DNA from: Candidatus Brocadiia bacterium
Lineage (GTDB): Bacteria > Planctomycetota > MHYJ01 > JACQXL01
Reading direction: 5' to 3'
Assembly (NCBI GenBank): GCA_020062035.1
Contig: JAGUXD010000137.1
Span: 1 to 12,893 of the forward strand
DNA length: 12,893 bases
Part shown: piece by piece, positions 2,570 through 12,893 of the stretch
How positions within the stretch are numbered: the first letter of the stretch is position 1
Layout: each line of letters opens with the position of its first letter
Notes under the pieces: generated by a model
Seen by the model: the letters and a program-made list of their open reading frames with translations, nothing else
Told to the model about the DNA's origin: nothing
The model's database searches: none
Position numbers and translations under genes: made by a program

Positions 2570-4378
2570 TTATTCCACCGTAACGCTTTTAGCCAGATTC
2601 CTTGGCTGGTCAATTTCCCTTCCTTTTTTTACTGCCGTATAATATGCCAATAATTGTAATGGCACCGCAATAAGAATAGTTGAAAGAATCTCACTTACAT
2701 TTGGGATTTCAATAACCCAGTCAGCGATTCTCTTGATATTCTTATCGCCTTTTGTCGCGATGGCTATTACCACACCGCCACGGGCTTTTATTTCCTGAAT
2801 ATTAGAAAGCATCTTTACATAGACCCTATCTTTGAGGACAATCGCAACAGTCGGGAAAGAACCATCAACGAGTGCCAAAGGGCCGTGTTTCATTTCGCCT
2901 GCGCCGTAACCCTCCGCGTGTGTATAAGAAATTTCTTTCATCTTCAATGCGCCCTCACAGGCACTTGCTAAATTATTCCTGCGTCCGATATACATAAAAT
3001 TATTAACCCGTTTATATGCCTCAGCGCATTTTTCTATCACATCCCTCTCAGACAGGACTTGCTTTATCTTGTCCGGTAATGTCTTTATCTGGTTTAATAA
3101 ACCCCTCTCTACTTTTGGACTAATCGTCTTTTTTGCCTTAGCAAGATAAACCGCAAAAAGTGTCAGTAGCGACAACTGGGCAGTATATGCCTTTGTAGAT
3201 GCAACGCTAATCTCTGGCCCGGCATATGTATATAAAGTAATATCAACTTCTCTGGTTAATGAAGAACCTACTACATTACAAATAGCCATACAGAAGGTGC
3301 CGTGTTCTTTTGCGCATCTTACAGCCGCCAGAGTATCTGCGGTCTCACCTGATTGTGAGACTGCAATTACCAGTGTATTTTTATCCAGAGGTGGAGGAGC
3401 ATAGCGGAACTCACTACCTAAAATCGCATCAGCAGGAACCCTGGCTAATTCTTCAATTGCGTATTTACTTGCTAATGCAACATGCCAGGCAGTTCCACAC
3501 GCAACCAGGACAACACGGTGGACATCCTTGAATTTATTTCTTATCCGCTCAAGTGTTGAATAATGCGGATAATTGACGGTTCTTCTTATTGCCTCTGGTT
3601 GTTCCTCTATCTCTTTGAGCATAAAATGGGCATAACCCTCTTTCTCTGCTGACTGGATATCCCATTTCACACGGTCAATCTGATAATCTTTTTTCTTACC
3701 TCTGAAATCAACAACCTTCATCTGGCACTTATTTATCTGCACCACTTCTTTATCCTTGAGATAAACGACCTTTTTAGTATGTCGCAGAAAAGCCGGCACA
3801 TCTGATGCCAGAAAGGTCTGCTTTTTACCAAGCCCAACTACAAGCGGGCTATATAATCTTGCGCCGATCAGAAGCCCAGGATAATCCGTGAACATAAAGA
3901 CCATAGCAAAACTACCTTCTAATTTATTACAGGATAACCTGACTGCTTTAAGGGGCTCGTGGGTTTTCAGATAATCTTCAACCAGATGCACCACGACCTC
4001 GCTATCAGTCTCAGAAAGGAAGCGGTGCTTCTTTTTAATAAGTTCATTCCTTATTTCCTGATAATTCTCAATAATACCGTTGTGAACAATTGCGACAGAG
4101 CCATCACAAGAGAAAAAAGGATGGGCATTACAAGTAGAAGGCGTCCCGTGTGTTGCCCAGCGGGTATGACCGATACCGGTGTTACCTAAAAATACTTGGT
4201 CTTTTAGAAGTTCTTCTAAATCTGCGATTTTACCAGCAGTCTTTTCGCTCCTGAAAACACCGTTCTCAAGAACAACTATGCCTGCGGAATCGTAGCCGCG
4301 GTATTCCAGACGCTTGAGACCATCAATTAAAATATCGCTTACCGGTTTTTTACTAATACATCCAATAATTCCACACAT
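2570..4378 (-). CDS. glmS: Glutamine-fructose-6-phosphate aminotransferase (isomerizing)
   Basis: A 602-residue enzyme, close to the usual length near 609, that makes glucosamine-6-phosphate from fructose-6-phosphate and glutamine. This is the first step toward UDP-GlcNAc. It begins MCGIIGC, so Cys2 becomes the N-terminal nucleophile of the class II glutaminase domain after Met removal. GHTRWATHG and the SETDSE stretch lie in that domain. Two SIS domains follow, with VSQSGETADT in the first and AEGYGAGEMKHGP in the second, and the C-terminus carries the family DQPRNLAKSVTVE tail. It is the first gene before sdhDCAB, and only 38 bases separate it from sdhD, so read-through into the sdh genes is likely. 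No glmS ribozyme is visible upstream. The mRNA leader appears to be only a few bases. Confidence 0.97.
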   Translation of the reverse strand: MCGIIGCISKKPVSDILIDGLKRLEYRGYDSAGIVVLENGVFRSEKTAGKIADLEELLKDQVFLGNTGIGHTRWATHGTPSTCNAHPFFSCDGSVAIVHNGIIENYQEIRNELIKKKHRFLSETDSEVVVHLVEDYLKTHEPLKAVRLSCNKLEGSFAMVFMFTDYPGLLIGARLYSPLVVGLGKKQTFLASDVPAFLRHTKKVVYLKDKEVVQINKCQMKVVDFRGKKKDYQIDRVKWDIQSAEKEGYAHFMLKEIEEQPEAIRRTVNYPHYSTLERIRNKFKDVHRVVLVACGTAWHVALASKYAIEELARVPADAILGSEFRYAPPPLDKNTLVIAVSQSGETADTLAAVRCAKEHGTFCMAICNVVGSSLTREVDITLYTYAGPEISVASTKAYTAQLSLLTLFAVYLAKAKKTISPKVERGLLNQIKTLPDKIKQVLSERDVIEKCAEAYKRVNNFMYIGRRNNLASACEGALKMKEISYTHAEGYGAGEMKHGPLALVDGSFPTVAIVLKDRVYVKMLSNIQEIKARGGVVIAIATKGDKNIKRIADWVIEIPNVSEILSTILIAVPLQLLAYYTAVKKGREIDQPRNLAKSVTVE

Positions 4379-7756: not shown

Positions 7757-8236
7757 ATGAGTATGCTCAAACTATCAATTGTATTCTTTTTGGGCTTATT
7801 ACTCTTGTCATTTAATACTTGCGATAGTAAAATCCCGCCACAGACCACTTCAACGAAAGCGCCTAACTTCACACTTAAAGACCTATCAGGCAACGAAGTA
7901 GCCCTCACAAAACTTATCGGCTCAAAGCCGCTGGTCCTGAATTTCTGGGCATCGTGGTGCCCTACCTGTGTTAAAAAACTGCCGCAACTTATGGACATTT
8001 ACAATAACGCAATGGATAAGTTCAGTCTGGTTGGTATCAACCTTGACAGGCGATTAGCCGATGCGCAGATATATGTCCAAAAGCATAATATCAATTTTAC
8101 CAATCTTCATGATGATGGTGGGAAAATATCCGCTCTTTACGGTGTTTTCGGCATTCCGACGATGATGATAATTAACTCACAAGGTGAGATAATCAACAGG
8201 AACGCATCTATTGATGATATTAAATTGCTAAAGTAG
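7757..8236 (+). CDS. Exported TlpA/ResA-like thiol-disulfide protein
   Basis: A 159-residue protein with an N-terminal hydrophobic segment (about 4-20), then an AhpC/TSA-thioredoxin fold. APNFTLKDLSG is the family start, the active site is WCPTC (Cys68, Cys71), and the cis-Pro is Pro134 in FGIPT. The hydrophobic segment ends FNTC. Cys22 could be lipidated, but the residues before it do not fit a standard lipobox, so an uncleaved anchor or ordinary signal peptide is equally possible. It would reduce extracytoplasmic thiols, such as apocytochrome haem motifs, using electrons from the adjacent ccdA. An ATG at 7763 is an alternative start. The C-terminus is short, and its last 9 bases overlap the end of priA on the other strand. 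Confidence 0.9.
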   Translation: MSMLKLSIVFFLGLLLLSFNTCDSKIPPQTTSTKAPNFTLKDLSGNEVALTKLIGSKPLVLNFWASWCPTCVKKLPQLMDIYNNAMDKFSLVGINLDRRLADAQIYVQKHNINFTNLHDDGGKISALYGVFGIPTMMIINSQGEIINRNASIDDIKLLK

Positions 8237-10315
8237 ATTCATCGGGTCAGTATCTATAGAAACAAAGACACCGCCTTTAGCAAACGGCACCCTGAATATC
8301 TCCTTGAGTGGCTTTTGAACCTGCCAGACATCCTTTACTTTCAGGACCAGATGCCAGCGATATTTGTTTCTTATCTTAAGAATAGGTGCCGGTGCGGGTC
8401 CCAAGACCTCTACATCGCAGGATTGAATAAACGACGACAATTTCTCCGAGATTACCTTTGCATATCGCTCTATTGACTGCTTTGCTTTTACCTCGTCTTT
8501 GGCAGTTACTAATATCCTGATAAGATGGCGGAAAGGCGGGTAATTCAGTTCGCTTCTGTAAAGTAATTCCTGTCTGGCAAAGCCGTCATAGTCGTGCCTT
8601 GCGCCTGCAACTATACTATAATGACTCGGATTTACTGTTTGCACGATTACTCTTCCACCCTTAGGTCCCCTGCCGGTTCTCCCAGCGACCTGCGTAACCA
8701 ACTGGAATGTCCGTTCAGCAGAGCGAAAATCCTTCAGATATAAGACAGTATCAGCAGAGACCACGCCAACTAAAGTAACATTCGGATAATCCAGGCCCTT
8801 GGCAATCATCTGTGTTCCGACCAGAACATCGGTCTCGCCTGTATAAAAAGTATGGAGCGTTTCCTTATAAAGTTTCTTTTTCCTCATCGCATCGCTATCC
8901 ATTCGGCTGATGGACAGTTTCTCTTTTGCTAAAACCTGAGTAAAATTAATCTCCCTCCATAATCTCTGTAATTCTTCTTCTACTCTTTCTGTCCCTGTTC
9001 CGATGAGTTTTATATTTGGATGACCGCAATCAGGACAAACCATCGGTAAATCATATCTCTGATTACAATAATGGCAGAGTGCCTTGTTAAATTGCTTATG
9101 ATAAGCAAGCGTAATCTGACATCTCTGGCATCGCATTATAAAACCACACCTGAAACATTTTATCATCGTAATAAAACCCCTGCGGTTAAGAAAGAGTATT
9201 ACCTGATTCCCTGCTAATATCTCGTCCTGAATATTCAGTTCCAATTTTCTGGAGAACGGATTAGATGGTCTTTTAGGGTCTATTTCTACAAGCATATTTA
9301 CTACTTCTACTTCAGGCAAAGGTTTTTTCTCTATTCGTTCAGGTAACACAAGACGGTGATATCTGCCGGAAAGAGAGCGATAATATGACTCTAAAGAAGG
9401 AGTAGCAGAGCCCAGAATCACGAGAGCGTTCTCTAATCTTGCCCTTTCTATTGCTACTTCTCGGACATTATATAAAGGCGTTGACGGTTGCTTGAAACTC
9501 GTCTCGTGTTCTTCATCAATTACAATCAGTCCTAATGCTCTAATCGGTGCAAAGATAGCAGAGCGAGCCCCAATCACCACCGATACCTCACCTTTCCTAA
9601 TCCGATGCCATTGTTCTTTCCTCTGCTTATCAGTCAGATGACTGTGTAAGACCGCGACTTCATCCCCGAAACGCGCCCTGAACCACTGAACCGTCTGCGG
9701 TGTCAGAGATATTTCAGGCACTAAAACAATCGTCTGCCTACCTGATTCCTTTACCCGTGCCATTACTTGTAGATAGACCTCGGTCTTTCCGCTACCAGTA
9801 ATACCGTGTAATAAAAACACTCTGGAACCCTTGAACCCTTGTCCCGATGTATATCGGGATGAACTTTTATCTATGGTTTCTAATATCTTATCAAATGCCT
9901 CTTGTTGATATGTAGTAAGAACAAATGGTTCTGTTCTCTGGACCGGTTCAGAAAAAGGGTCTACTAATTTTGACTTTTTGGTATGCATTGATTTAGTGAT
10001 TTTTCTAACTCCGCTTGGCAGGGCGCACTCAATTGCCTGACCGTATGAACAAAAATAATAATCAGCAATCCAGCGACAGAGAGAAAGCATCTCTTCTGTC
10101 AGAAGTGGCTCCGGGTCTATTACTTCTTCTATGTCTTTGAGAGATGAGACAGGAGATGTATCAGAGAACCCGATGCAATATCCGAGAGATGACCGTTTTC
10201 CGAAAGGCGCCCTTACACGAGCACCTATCTTTAATATACCCTGCAGACCATCAGGAATCAGATAATGGAAACACTTATCCAGAGGCACAGGAAAAACAAT
10301 CTCTACATATCTCAT
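8228..10315 (-). CDS. priA: Primosomal replication restart helicase PriA
   Basis: A 695-residue superfamily 2 helicase that reloads the replisome at stalled forks. In order: the N-terminal fork-binding domain (about 1-110), Walker A GITGSGKT (171-178), the DEEH box (VIDEEHETSF), and the zinc module with CFRCGF, CQRC, CHYC and CPDC, making eight cysteines as in the family. The helicase C-lobe has GTQMIAKGLDYP and QVAGRTGRG, and a C-terminal domain follows. All catalytic motifs are intact. Residues 151-165 (SSSRYTSGQGFKGSR), just before the Walker A strand, are an apparent in-frame insertion encoded by a palindrome plus a tandem 8-mer. The start ATG is 9 bases after a TATAAT and lacks a Shine-Dalgarno, predicting a leaderless mRNA. 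Confidence 0.96.
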   Translation of the reverse strand: MRYVEIVFPVPLDKCFHYLIPDGLQGILKIGARVRAPFGKRSSLGYCIGFSDTSPVSSLKDIEEVIDPEPLLTEEMLSLCRWIADYYFCSYGQAIECALPSGVRKITKSMHTKKSKLVDPFSEPVQRTEPFVLTTYQQEAFDKILETIDKSSSRYTSGQGFKGSRVFLLHGITGSGKTEVYLQVMARVKESGRQTIVLVPEISLTPQTVQWFRARFGDEVAVLHSHLTDKQRKEQWHRIRKGEVSVVIGARSAIFAPIRALGLIVIDEEHETSFKQPSTPLYNVREVAIERARLENALVILGSATPSLESYYRSLSGRYHRLVLPERIEKKPLPEVEVVNMLVEIDPKRPSNPFSRKLELNIQDEILAGNQVILFLNRRGFITMIKCFRCGFIMRCQRCQITLAYHKQFNKALCHYCNQRYDLPMVCPDCGHPNIKLIGTGTERVEEELQRLWREINFTQVLAKEKLSISRMDSDAMRKKKLYKETLHTFYTGETDVLVGTQMIAKGLDYPNVTLVGVVSADTVLYLKDFRSAERTFQLVTQVAGRTGRGPKGGRVIVQTVNPSHYSIVAGARHDYDGFARQELLYRSELNYPPFRHLIRILVTAKDEVKAKQSIERYAKVISEKLSSFIQSCDVEVLGPAPAPILKIRNKYRWHLVLKVKDVWQVQKPLKEIFRVPFAKGGVFVSIDTDPMNLL
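9821..9865 (-). repeat. In-frame palindromic insert within priA
   Basis: The 45 bases encode PriA residues 151-165. They hold TCCCGAT-GTAT-ATCGGGA (plus strand 9842-9859, 7-bp stem, 4-base loop). On the minus strand AAGGGTTC then follows twice in tandem. The length is a multiple of three, so the frame is kept. The position is a linker between the N-terminal domain and the helicase core, where extra residues are tolerated. Confidence 0.6.
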
Positions 10316-10324
10316 AAAAATACA

Positions 10325-10350
10325 ATTATATAGCCTCCTATGAAAGTCAA
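10325..10350 (-). promoter_or_regulatory. Candidate priA promoter with -35 in the repeat arm
   Basis: On the minus strand TTGACT (10350-10345), which is the outer end of the left repeat arm, is followed after 14 bases by a consensus TATAAT (10330-10325). The priA ATG lies 9 bases further with no Shine-Dalgarno. The 14-base spacer is short, so the -35 is less sure than the -10. Confidence 0.5.
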
Positions 10351-10447
10351 GGAAATCTTGCTACAGAGGACACAGAGACGGAATTTATTTATAATCCCAG
10401 AGGGACTCTGTGAACTCTGTGCCTCTGTGGCAAGATTTCCTTGACTT
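10344..10447. repeat. 104-bp inverted-repeat element (MITE-like)
   Basis: The terminal arms at 10344-10369 and 10422-10447 are 26 bp each and complementary with one mismatch. They read AAGTCAAGGAAATCTTGC... and end ACAGAGG. The inner parts carry further CACAGAG/CTCTGTG repeats that can extend the hairpin with bulges. No coding capacity and no clear target-site duplication are seen. Sequences rich in CTCTGTG and CCTCTGTGG are common dispersed repeats in environmental genomes, so a non-autonomous mobile repeat is likely. It sits between the divergent priA and radC' genes, and its ends supply TTGACT on both sides. Confidence 0.75.
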
Positions 10448-10478: not shown

Positions 10479-10589
10479 ATGAAATCGGACAAAACCAACT
10501 GTCGGCATCCTGGCGGGAAATTATTGGCTCTGGGTGCGGAGAAACTTACGGATTCCGAATTATTGGCAATTCTGATAGGTGATTTCTGA
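10479..10589 (+). pseudogene. radC: N-terminal fragment of RadC
   Basis: A 36-codon frame ends in TGA. Its residues 14-34 (GKLLALGAEKLTDSELLAIL and the next few) match the conserved N-terminus of RadC, in which a PREKLL...LGxExLSDxELLAILL...GTG stretch opens the UPF0758 domain. The match stops at AILIG and is followed by DF and a stop. The helix-hairpin-helix remainder and the JAB-like metal-binding domain (HNHPSG) are absent here and are not seen downstream to the window end. It keeps its own promoter, so a short peptide may still be made. The likely history is that the restriction locus arrived inside radC and the remainder was lost or lies elsewhere. Confidence 0.7.
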
Positions 10590-10615: not shown

Positions 10616-10975
10616 GTGCAATTTAATGAGTTCAAAGAAGAGTTTTACCTCTTATATAATCAGTATAAAATTAACTGGGAGGTTTATGGATTCCTGAGCA
10701 GGGATGATAAGATTTATGCCCTTGGTTCTGATACCAAAGTTCTTTCCACAGTCTTTGAACTTCTATGAGCTCCATTGATACGAGAAATCGCCTCTAAACA
10801 CGGTTATCAGGTTGAAGAATCACCCCAAACTATTTATCCTGATTTTACTCTTTTAAAATCCCAAAAGGATAAAAATAAGATTGCGATTGATATTAAAACC
10901 ACTTATCGTCGGGGCGCTGATAAATCATTTGTTTATACACTCGGTTCATATACCTCGTTTTTGCGGAATAAATAA
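10616..10975 (+). pseudogene. EcoRV-like type II restriction endonuclease, broken by a nonsense codon and C-terminal loss
   Basis: Starting at GTG 10616, 8 bases after GGGGGGG (10601-10607), the frame matches the N-terminal half of EcoRV. KIYALGSDTKVLSTVFEL parallels KIYPLGSDTKVLSTIFEL, HGYQVEE parallels HGYIVEE, and YPDFTL, KIAIDIKTTY and TLGSYTSFLRN follow. I recall the EcoRV sequence from memory. Codon 51 is TGA (10766-10768), where EcoRV has Ser. The frame resumes at once and ends at TAA 10973-10975 after codon 119. Asp76, Asp92 and Lys94 align with the EcoRV catalytic Asp74, Asp90 and Lys92. EcoRV is about 245 residues, so the half holding the recognition loop is missing, and no other frame restores it. 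A TTG at 10775 could restart translation, but the product would lack DNA recognition. Confidence 0.88.
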
Positions 10976-10982
10976 AAATAGA

Positions 10983-11011
10983 TTGACAGAACGGCTTATC
11001 AGAAGTATGCT
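10983..11011 (+). promoter_or_regulatory. Methyltransferase promoter, predicted leaderless
   Basis: TTGACA (10983-10988), a 17-base spacer and TATGCT (11006-11011) begin 7 bases after the stop of the broken endonuclease. The methyltransferase ATG (11019) is 7 bases after the -10 with no Shine-Dalgarno, so the predicted transcript starts at or next to the ATG. Confidence 0.65.
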
Positions 11012-11018
11012 TAAAACA

Positions 11019-11990
11019 ATGAAATATAAAACGAGAAAGCCCAAGAAACATTTAGTAAAAGAGGAAGCAGTTCAGTTCAAGCCCAATCCTTACCTTGATG
11101 TTAGATTGCTCCAGAGGGAGCGAAAGGTTAAGAACCGCATAGAAAAAGAGTTTATTCGGGGCGGGACTAAATACCAGGTCGTTCATCATTCGCCTGATAA
11201 ACCCGTGGATTTATCTAAATGGTCAAATAGAATTATCTGCAGTGATAGCGAGTCGGTATTAAAAGAAATCCCTAATGATTCCATAGATATTATTATCACC
11301 TCGCCGCCTTATAATTTTGGGTTAGATTATGATAGCGACCATAAGAATGATGCGGTTAAATGGGAAGATTATTTTGCTAAACTAAATAGAGTCTGGATAG
11401 AATGTGTCAGGGTATTGAAAATCGGTGGAAGGTTTTGCATCAATATCCAGCCCCTATTTTCAGATTACATCCCGACACATCATATGGTCTCTAAACAATT
11501 ATTAGACCTCGGGCTTCTGTGGAAAGGCGAGATTCTCTGGGAAAAGAATAATTATAATTGCAAATATACGGCTTGGGGCAGTTGGTGCAGTCCGAGTATG
11601 CCTTACCTGAAATATACATGGGAGTTTGTAGAAATATTCTGCAAGGGGTCTCATAAAAAGTTCGGTTCATCTAACAAGATTGACATCAGAGGCGATGAGT
11701 TCAAGAAATGGGTCTATGCCAAATGGGTTATCGCGCCTGAAAGGAATATGAAAGAATTCGGGCATCCGGCGATGTTCCCCGAAGAATTAATAACACGGTT
11801 ATTAAAACTATTCAGTTATCAGGACGATGTGGTATTAGACCCCTTTAATGGCGCCGGAACAACTACCGCCGTAGCTAAAAAACTATCCCGGAAATATATC
11901 GGCATTGATATTTCAGATGAATATTGTAAAAAGGCAGAAGACCGCCTCAAGAAAACATCTGTTGAAACGAGTTTATTCCAGAGAGTATGA
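11019..11990 (+). CDS. Beta-class DNA methyltransferase (N4-cytosine or N6-adenine), type II R-M
   Basis: A 323-residue amino-methyltransferase. Catalytic motif IV TSPPYNFG is at 94-101, and the AdoMet motif I DPFNGAGTTT is at 274-283, followed by YIGIDIS. The order IV before I defines the beta class. GSWCSP (187-192) lies between them, and the intervening region should carry the target recognition segment. A basic N-terminus of about 65 residues precedes the catalytic core. The SPPY form is common in N4-cytosine enzymes but also occurs in N6-adenine ones, so base specificity is open. The ORF is open upstream to 10881, but that part overlaps the endonuclease relic, and ATG 11019 sits just after a good promoter. 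It overlaps the next gene by 4 bases. EcoRV's own methylase is alpha class, so this is not its usual partner. Confidence 0.92.
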   Translation: MKYKTRKPKKHLVKEEAVQFKPNPYLDVRLLQRERKVKNRIEKEFIRGGTKYQVVHHSPDKPVDLSKWSNRIICSDSESVLKEIPNDSIDIIITSPPYNFGLDYDSDHKNDAVKWEDYFAKLNRVWIECVRVLKIGGRFCINIQPLFSDYIPTHHMVSKQLLDLGLLWKGEILWEKNNYNCKYTAWGSWCSPSMPYLKYTWEFVEIFCKGSHKKFGSSNKIDIRGDEFKKWVYAKWVIAPERNMKEFGHPAMFPEELITRLLKLFSYQDDVVLDPFNGAGTTTAVAKKLSRKYIGIDISDEYCKKAEDRLKKTSVETSLFQRV

Positions 11991-12694
11991 GCATGAAGTC
12001 GTCAAAAGGCGTCCAATCGCTTATCAATGCCTACGAATTCCTGGTTAAAGGCATTGACTCAAAGGCAAAGGATTCAGAAGACCGTGCCTATGGCGGTATT
12101 ATCAGGGCCGGCAAGGGAATGCTGGTTGAAAGTTTAGGAAAGAGTTTGGTAGAAATTGCGTGGAAAGAATTAGGTAACAAACCCGTAAGATTATCCACTG
12201 AAAGACAGACCGTAAAAATCCCATTAAATGAAATGTATCTCAATAGAATCAAAAGCCCAGAGGTTAAAAAATATATCAAGGATAATATCAAGGATTTTTA
12301 CTATCTGCTTAAAACCGATATTCATGTTTATATAGACGGGAAATTCAAGATTGCAATGGAGTGCAAGGCATACACGGAAAATGCGATGCTCAAGAGAATC
12401 TTGGTTGATTTCACATTATTCAAGCAGGTTTACCCTGATTTATCCTTTGTCTTACTGCAATTAGAAAGTCAGTCAGGCGGAGATTACTCATCGTTAAACA
12501 GCATCAAATATGGAAGTCCTTCTACTCATACATTGCTGTCATATTTTGATATTGACTTGAATATCCTCACACTGCTTGAGGGAGAAAGAAAGGTTGATAA
12601 GCCGATACACAAACCGGAATGTTACAAGTCACTGAGAGCCGAAAGCATCTTGACCGTACTTGAGGTTATAAAAAACTTATTATCTATATACTAA
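11987..12694 (+). CDS. Probable PD-(D/E)xK restriction endonuclease, family unknown
   Basis: A 235-residue protein I cannot assign to a named family. It starts ATGA, overlapping the methyltransferase stop by 4 bases, so the two are translationally coupled. The best nuclease signature is TDIHVYI at 110-116, followed by MECKAYT at 124-130. Asp111, Glu125 and Lys127 give a D-x13-ExK arrangement on two predicted strands, as in the PD-(D/E)xK fold, and Glu49 in an N-terminal helix could be a further metal ligand. A strand-rich stretch (LSFVLLQLE) and a C-terminal leucine-rich helix follow. There is no signal peptide or membrane segment. Context beside a beta-class methyltransferase makes it the likely cognate endonuclease. 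An alternative start is ATG 11993. No terminator is visible after the stop. Confidence 0.7.
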   Translation: MSMKSSKGVQSLINAYEFLVKGIDSKAKDSEDRAYGGIIRAGKGMLVESLGKSLVEIAWKELGNKPVRLSTERQTVKIPLNEMYLNRIKSPEVKKYIKDNIKDFYYLLKTDIHVYIDGKFKIAMECKAYTENAMLKRILVDFTLFKQVYPDLSFVLLQLESQSGGDYSSLNSIKYGSPSTHTLLSYFDIDLNILTLLEGERKVDKPIHKPECYKSLRAESILTVLEVIKNLLSIY

Positions 12695-12893
12695 ACTCTT
12701 GCGAAATGGGAAAAAACTTGATTCTAAATCCATCCAGTGTATTTATGAAAACAGAGAGGGATAGAAAGGATATTATCCTGCAAAAGGACATTCGGACAAC
12801 GAGGCATCGTGGTTTTTAATCGGCATGACCTTATCGCCAAGCTCAAAGACCCCAGTCAAGGCGACTACCGCCAAGCGCATGACCTAAGTATAC
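12695..12893. other. Unassigned window end with short competing frames
   Basis: No recognised gene is present. On the plus strand a 37-codon frame (ATG 12706 to TAA 12819) is possible. From GTG 12809, with GAGG at 12801-12804, another frame reads VVFNRHDLIAKLKDPSQGDY and continues past the window edge. On the minus strand an ATG near 12880 opens 35 codons ending near 12774. The last 110 bases look richer in G+C than the restriction genes before them. I see no radC remainder, transposase or tRNA here. Confidence 0.3.

Follow-up and report, generated by a model that had tools for sequence, protein, structure and literature searches.

A recently killed EcoRV-type endonuclease gene, reduced to its 5' half, beside an intact restriction-modification pair in a Planctomycetota genome

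The window (the whole 12,893-nucleotide stretch of DNA that was analysed, contig JAGUXD010000137.1 of the Candidatus Brocadiia bacterium assembly GCA_020062035.1) raises the question of how half of a restriction endonuclease gene came to lie next to a different, intact restriction-modification (R-M) pair. A sequence-only reading had described the half gene as an EcoRV homologue of about 119 codons with an intact catalytic centre, its recognition half lost. It is made up as follows.

10616..10975, plus strand: relic of an EcoRV-family restriction endonuclease gene; starts at GTG, with 118 homologous codons, one non-homologous codon and TAA
10766..10768, plus strand: in-frame TGA at codon 51; TGC (Cys) in the intact gene of a relative, G002

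The similarity to the EcoRV family is not due to chance. The PF09233 profile matches the relic over positions 6-113 of its 244 (E 4.7e-23) and has no other match in this genome, which is 64% complete. The part 3' of the TGA alone scores above the cut-off (1.8e-11), and the part 5' of it just below (4e-5, 23.6 bits against 25). The search of the stop-masked translation against EcoRV, as proposed in the earlier reading, gave significant matches: with phmmer, eight distinct PDB sequences were retrieved, all of them EcoRV (E 4.9e-31 to 4.2e-30), and query residues 13-118 align to residues 11-116 of 1eo3 chain A. The blocks GSDTKVLST, YPDFTL and IAIDIKTTY all lie within this alignment. Counted along it, the Asp, Asp and Lys of the relic fall, at EcoRV spacing, on D74, D90 and K92, which are given as the catalytic residues of EcoRV in PMC4081073.

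The frame comprises 119 codons (10616-10972), opens with GTG, is interrupted once by the TGA and closes with TAA at 10973-10975. Its DNA aligns codon by codon with the intact G002 gene as far as the break. EcoRV homology ends at about 10972, and everything beyond EcoRV residue 116 is absent, so that the C-terminal half, which carries the recognition R-loop, is gone. Positions 10616-10975 are what is left, the 5' half, of an EcoRV-type endonuclease gene that was killed recently. Residues 11-116 of EcoRV, the D74/D90/K92 triad and the GSDTK, YPDFTL and IDIKTTY blocks are shared, whereas the premature TGA, the end at residue 116 and the lack of an adjoining cognate methyltransferase gene set the relic apart. 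The catalytic centre is intact as codons only, since in a protein the TGA comes before all three residues. Because of this order, and because everything after residue 116 is gone, the relic is dead and presumably makes no endonuclease today.

Continued use of the gene would require either that the TGA is read as selenocysteine or that a 66-aa internal frame, starting from TTG 10775, serves in another role. Cysteine is the usual exchange partner of selenocysteine, and a Cys stands opposite the TGA in all 11 closest intact proteins (among the matches listed). The low proportion of nonsynonymous differences described below would also fit, and selB is found above the cut-off in G001 and G002. However, the column is Cys in only 52 of the 121 compared proteins of the wider family, selB scores at best 96.8 bits in this incomplete genome (cut-off 242), folding of the 45 bases starting at the TGA is weak (-3.8 kcal/mol), and TGA also terminates two intact genes of the window. 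The selenocysteine reading was rejected mainly since the second half of the protein, everything after EcoRV residue 116, would be missing regardless; continued use in either form is hardly tenable.

Intact homologues are found in two relatives. Across 99 genomes (this one and relatives up to the phylum), PF09233 matches three: the window, G002 and G072, the last with an intact gene in the same phylum. G002 (MAG Planctomycetota bacterium isolate Yes70-35, JASEHY010000057.1) belongs to the same family as the genome of the window. Its homologue is full-length (249 aa) and 86% identical to the relic over the common part (101 of 118 residues). Three other full-length proteins, P0002, P0003 and P0004, are closer still among the matches listed (105 of 118 residues each); all such closest-protein comparisons refer to the best 120 of 290 matching proteins. 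The full-length version that had been sought at the same locus in related genomes thus exists in G002, but at a different locus. There it is flanked on one side by ribulose-phosphate-epimerase-like and acyl-CoA-synthetase-like genes (identified by eye). On the other side, unlike in the window, lie a 315-aa HSDR_N_2-domain gene and a 454-aa gene combining a helix-turn-helix with a D12-class methyltransferase (L004 2783-4144; PF02086 1.2e-12, N-terminal HTH_19 7.5e-13), which may be a fused controller and methyltransferase.

The family is broader than the sequence-only reading supposed when it called EcoRV homologues rare outside a few genera. Among 514 candidates, 290 proteins match at E<=1e-3; matches also occur in 12 plasmid records from 7 genera and, as a single distant one (25.6%), in a halovirus present as two of 50,697 phage records. 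A scan of genome contigs, reaching close relatives, gave two EcoRV-family loci. IMG/VR holds one 41% match, whose length and coordinates equal those of the Tuberibacillus locus from that contig scan. With only this match and the halovirus one, a phage origin of the relic was rejected. Nor does the synonymous distance make the relic the marker of horizontal transfer that it had been called: pS between relic and G002 gene (0.62) is near that of priA in the same genome pair (0.65; radC 0.78).

Comparison with the G002 gene also bears on when the relic died. Over 118 codons, pS is 0.624, pN 0.107 and dN/dS 0.086 (0.100 on the 5' side of the TGA and 0.055 on the 3' side), with 17, 7 and 58 differences at codon positions 1, 2 and 3. 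In the 11 closest intact proteins (among the matches listed), 69 of 118 columns are invariant, the TGA column being set aside. The relic is changed at two of the 69, the GTG start (translated as Met) and the final codon, next to the break, and at none of the 67 internal ones; the same test applied to each of the 11 intact proteins gave 0 to 6 changes. From the low pN/pS and the 67 internal invariant residues kept, selection therefore acted over nearly all of the divergence and the decay is recent. A rough Poisson bound, assuming equal branches and Jukes-Cantor distances, places the unconstrained time at less than 3-5% of the branch.

One short segment stands out within this alignment. Thirteen consecutive codons (10919-10957) match the G002 gene base for base, against 54 identical codons of 118 overall, and a run of this length was reached in 19 of 20,000 shuffles. 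Gene conversion near the break is a possible explanation.

The same run, which stops near the break, could also be taken as a sign that the break, the TGA or both are products of metagenome assembly, by a chimeric contig or a strain consensus, and the draft state of the genome (211 contigs, 64% complete) goes in the same direction. However, beyond a shared stretch a chimera should continue as EcoRV sequence like that of G002, which is not the case. The TGA lies 200 bases from the break and is a lesion of its own, and the genome, as far as it is complete (64%), contains no further PF09233 match. An artefact is very improbable.

What lies downstream of the break is an intact pair of genes, separated from the relic by a short junction.

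10973..11021, plus strand: junction from the end of EcoRV homology to the start of the shared M-R cassette; blastn alignments end at 10971 and 11022
11019..11990, plus strand: intact DNA methyltransferase, PF01555 (E 1.4e-40; PADLOC MTase_II 2e-68), TSPPY motif
11987..12694, plus strand: intact gene for a type II endonuclease of 235 aa, PD-(D/E)XK-like; BbvCI is the closest solved fold

The TSPPY motif is taken here to indicate an N4-cytosine or N6-adenine type methyltransferase. As an intact methyltransferase adjoins an endonuclease of PD-(D/E)XK type, the two genes have the form of a type II pair, and any defence at this locus would rest on them. Neither the viral scan, with a reach of close relatives, nor the plasmid records gave a match to the endonuclease. 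A copy of the pair is present in G003, with 88% identity in DNA and 90% amino acid identity for the methyltransferase. This identity extends from 11022 to 12688 and breaks off sharply at either end, and the flanking genes differ. The pair is too similar to the G003 copy for vertical descent, because its pS values are 0.38 and 0.45, compared with 0.85 for priA and 0.75 for radC in the same two genomes. This one comparison, with its sharp ends and low synonymous divergence, supports the view that the pair has moved as a 1.67-kb unit between genera of the family.

It is likely, in our view, that this different R-M pair integrated into the EcoRV-type endonuclease gene and replaced its 3' half. The locus is best read as a small defence-gene graveyard, where one R-M system would have replaced part of another. 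The replacement step is what we infer from the arrangement of the two units. About 50 bases of other sequence lie between the break and the pair. Within them, just 5' of the methyltransferase ATG at 11019, a promoter-like pair can be read by eye (TTGACA at 10983-10988, a 17-base gap, TATGCT at 11006-11011). No repeat was found at the left junction (10900-11060), which speaks against displacement. So does the tail beyond the pair, whose right end is 200 bases from the contig end: inspection by eye of six frames of 12695-12893 recognised no EcoRV 3' half, no methyltransferase piece and nothing else.

Alternatively, the EcoRV-type gene may have died alone, first by the TGA and then by a 3' deletion, with the M-R pair arriving later and not being the cause. 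There are two lesions, a single TGA is enough to kill a gene, and the relic does not adjoin the shared pair directly, as about 50 bases of other sequence lie between them. Endonuclease genes are described as decaying frequently, often alone, while methyltransferase genes are retained (PMC10273834 section 4.4), and truncated solitary endonuclease genes are common, 99 of 272 having been judged probable fragments (PMC3488263). Against this order of events, the break is so near the left end of the cassette that a coincidence would be needed, and the recent death leaves little time for separate decay. We therefore regard an independent death as unlikely, and the integration of the pair into the gene remains the preferred explanation.

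This kind of event, R-M replacement together with endonuclease gene decay, is already known. In sections 4.3 and 4.4 of PMC10273834, Kojima and Kobayashi describe a case from Helicobacter in which an R-M pair with a PabI homologue took the place of a GANTC endonuclease gene. The two cases agree in that one R-M pair replaces the endonuclease gene of another system, with decayed endonuclease genes nearby. They differ in the enzyme families, and in that related strains and species were compared in Helicobacter, with no same-locus comparison here.

The lineage would formerly have had an EcoRV-type R-M system. The cognate methyltransferase of EcoRV is an adenine methyltransferase of the D12 kind. 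No D12 methyltransferase is linked to the relic in this 64% complete genome; the neighbouring methyltransferase is best matched by PF01555, with only 0.026 for PF02086.

Elsewhere in the genome, on contig C13 (L047, 3447-3566), a piece of a methyltransferase is 80% identical over 40 residues to the G002 enzyme.

This piece, on a different contig from the relic, lacks its 5' part and is cut by the contig end. It would represent the remnant of the former system. A type II system would decay safely if the toxic endonuclease gene were lost before or together with its methyltransferase. At the same time, the location and broken 5' end of the piece count against displacement as the full account, as one event does not explain everything.

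The other side of the locus is formed by a core gene, which we take from its sequence to be priA, and an inverted repeat.

8228..10315, minus strand: priA, a core gene next to the remains of defence genes; matched strongly in 5 of 8 relatives searched
10344..10447, no strand: inverted repeat whose 26-nt arms are 96% complementary; similar sequence also at other places in this genome and in relatives

The priA gene is 66% identical to that of G001, and the remaining 3 of the 8 relatives gave weak helicase-like matches only. No genome was found with an intact EcoRV gene at the priA-side locus, and no clean empty site was found either, the genes upstream of priA differing among G001, G002, G005 and G008; both points weigh against displacement. 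By eye, no R-M genes were recognised upstream of priA in these four genomes, and the neighbouring genes are not shared. In G003, priA lies 89 bases from the contig end.

The arms of the inverted repeat are of the CCTCTGTGGCAAGATTTCCTTGACTT type, and related sequence occurs at several places in the genome and in 6 of 19 other genomes searched. Rfam gave no structural RNA match at the gathering threshold.

Traces of past restriction were looked for in site counts over the window and eight further loci of this genome (47.7 kb). GATATC is mildly under-represented, with 16 sites against 29.7 expected (one-word Poisson 0.004), compared with ratios of 0.79 in G002, 1.03 in G003 and 1.07 in G001. A long active life of EcoRV specificity in this genome is not evident, which also weighs against the proposed course of events. 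Several short palindromes are rarer (observed/expected: TCGA 3/106, GATC 10/211, CTAG 2/79, TTTAAA 2/26), and their avoidance is similar in the G002 and G003 loci and weaker in G001. This suggests heavy past or present restriction in the lineage. The specificity of the present pair cannot be read from the avoidance of TTTAAA, GATC, TCGA and CTAG, since G002 avoids them too and a PDLC03499 search there gave no copy (78% complete).

The least expected observation lies beside the main question and concerns a second broken gene, just upstream of the relic.

10479..10589, plus strand: broken gene for a stand-alone RadC N-terminal domain (UPF0758_N, helix-hairpin-helix); homology covers about 34 codons and is followed by DF and TGA

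The stub matches PF20582 at E 2.1e-6 (28.2 bits, cut-off 27.1) and is 66% identical over residues 1-35 to an intact 107-aa gene of G002. It is distinct from the intact full-length radC of the genome, which lies on another contig and has a different sequence. An MKSD start and an HPGGK motif are common to the stub and the intact 104-107-aa stand-alone proteins of G003 and G002. We refer to these small proteins as mini-RadC. In the class of this length, 1407 proteins match at E<=1e-3. Plasmid and phage matches (11 and 5 records) are 32-43% identical, the annotated ones being named RadC, and the viral scan found none.

The RadC search matched 136 of 392 genomes, mostly with apparently full-length radC. 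The RadC catalytic motif HNHP(S/T)G is present in 16 of the 30 loci fetched from it. The ten best matches outside this genome that were short, or whose frame lacked the motif, were inspected as mini-RadC (L074 and L075 excluded). Nine look intact: two in G002 and one each in G195, G154, G361, G003, G161 (start uncertain, frame 452 aa), G010 and G365. In eight of the nine, the gene that follows on the same strand, either overlapping or at most about 95 bases away, is a DNA methyltransferase; the ninth, in G003, is cut off by the end of its contig. These mini-RadC genes upstream of a methyltransferase/type IIG gene are the following.

L102: 335-655
L103: 239-520
L097: 1914-2204
L099: 836-1129
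L104: 3139-3438
L105: 2479-2856
L098: about 3394-3669
L101: about 2711-3073

Six of the eight neighbours combine Eco57I and N6_Mtase domains in a single chain of at least 887 aa, and two are of the PF01555 type. The tenth copy, a partial one (G361 C67 55-204; L099 73-207), is followed by a small PBECR2/DUF4258-like gene and is a counter-example. No relatives of these methyltransferases occur in the flanks of about 1.5 kb of the 16 motif-bearing loci (0 of 16). L074, L075, L078 and L095 lack the motif and were not classed, L075 with a weak 27% methyltransferase match; L091 is a radC cut short.

The genome of the window has three mini-RadC pieces: the stub, a 50-codon piece on C14 and, on C206, a C-terminal part. 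The last is cut by the contig end and precedes a type IIG gene broken into several frames.

This type IIG gene (L096, C206 1133-4504, minus strand) is a decayed R-M gene, a second dead R-M system in the genome.

Tentatively, and with some doubt, the stub may be assigned to a widespread mini-RadC family (about 95-125 aa, lacking the catalytic part of RadC) whose members share operons with DNA methyltransferases, mostly single-chain type IIG enzymes. The priA-side locus may then be a docking site that took up a stack of three or more defence units, destroyed one after another: a mini-RadC unit, the EcoRV-type unit and the present pair. Among the papers listed, none seemed from its title and opening abstract to deal with small RadC-like proteins alongside type IIG enzymes. 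If true, this link, which has the wider reach, would connect a small protein that is common but has received little attention with type IIG restriction enzymes.

For the lineage itself, the locus represents a fairly ordinary but real trace of bacterial defence-gene turnover. It provides a clear, recent snapshot of R-M turnover in an uncultured lineage of Planctomycetota, in which a killed endonuclease keeps a nearly unaltered, once-selected sequence, beside a sharp-ended pair that appears to have moved between genera. Such cases allow the order of events in R-M replacement to be dated.
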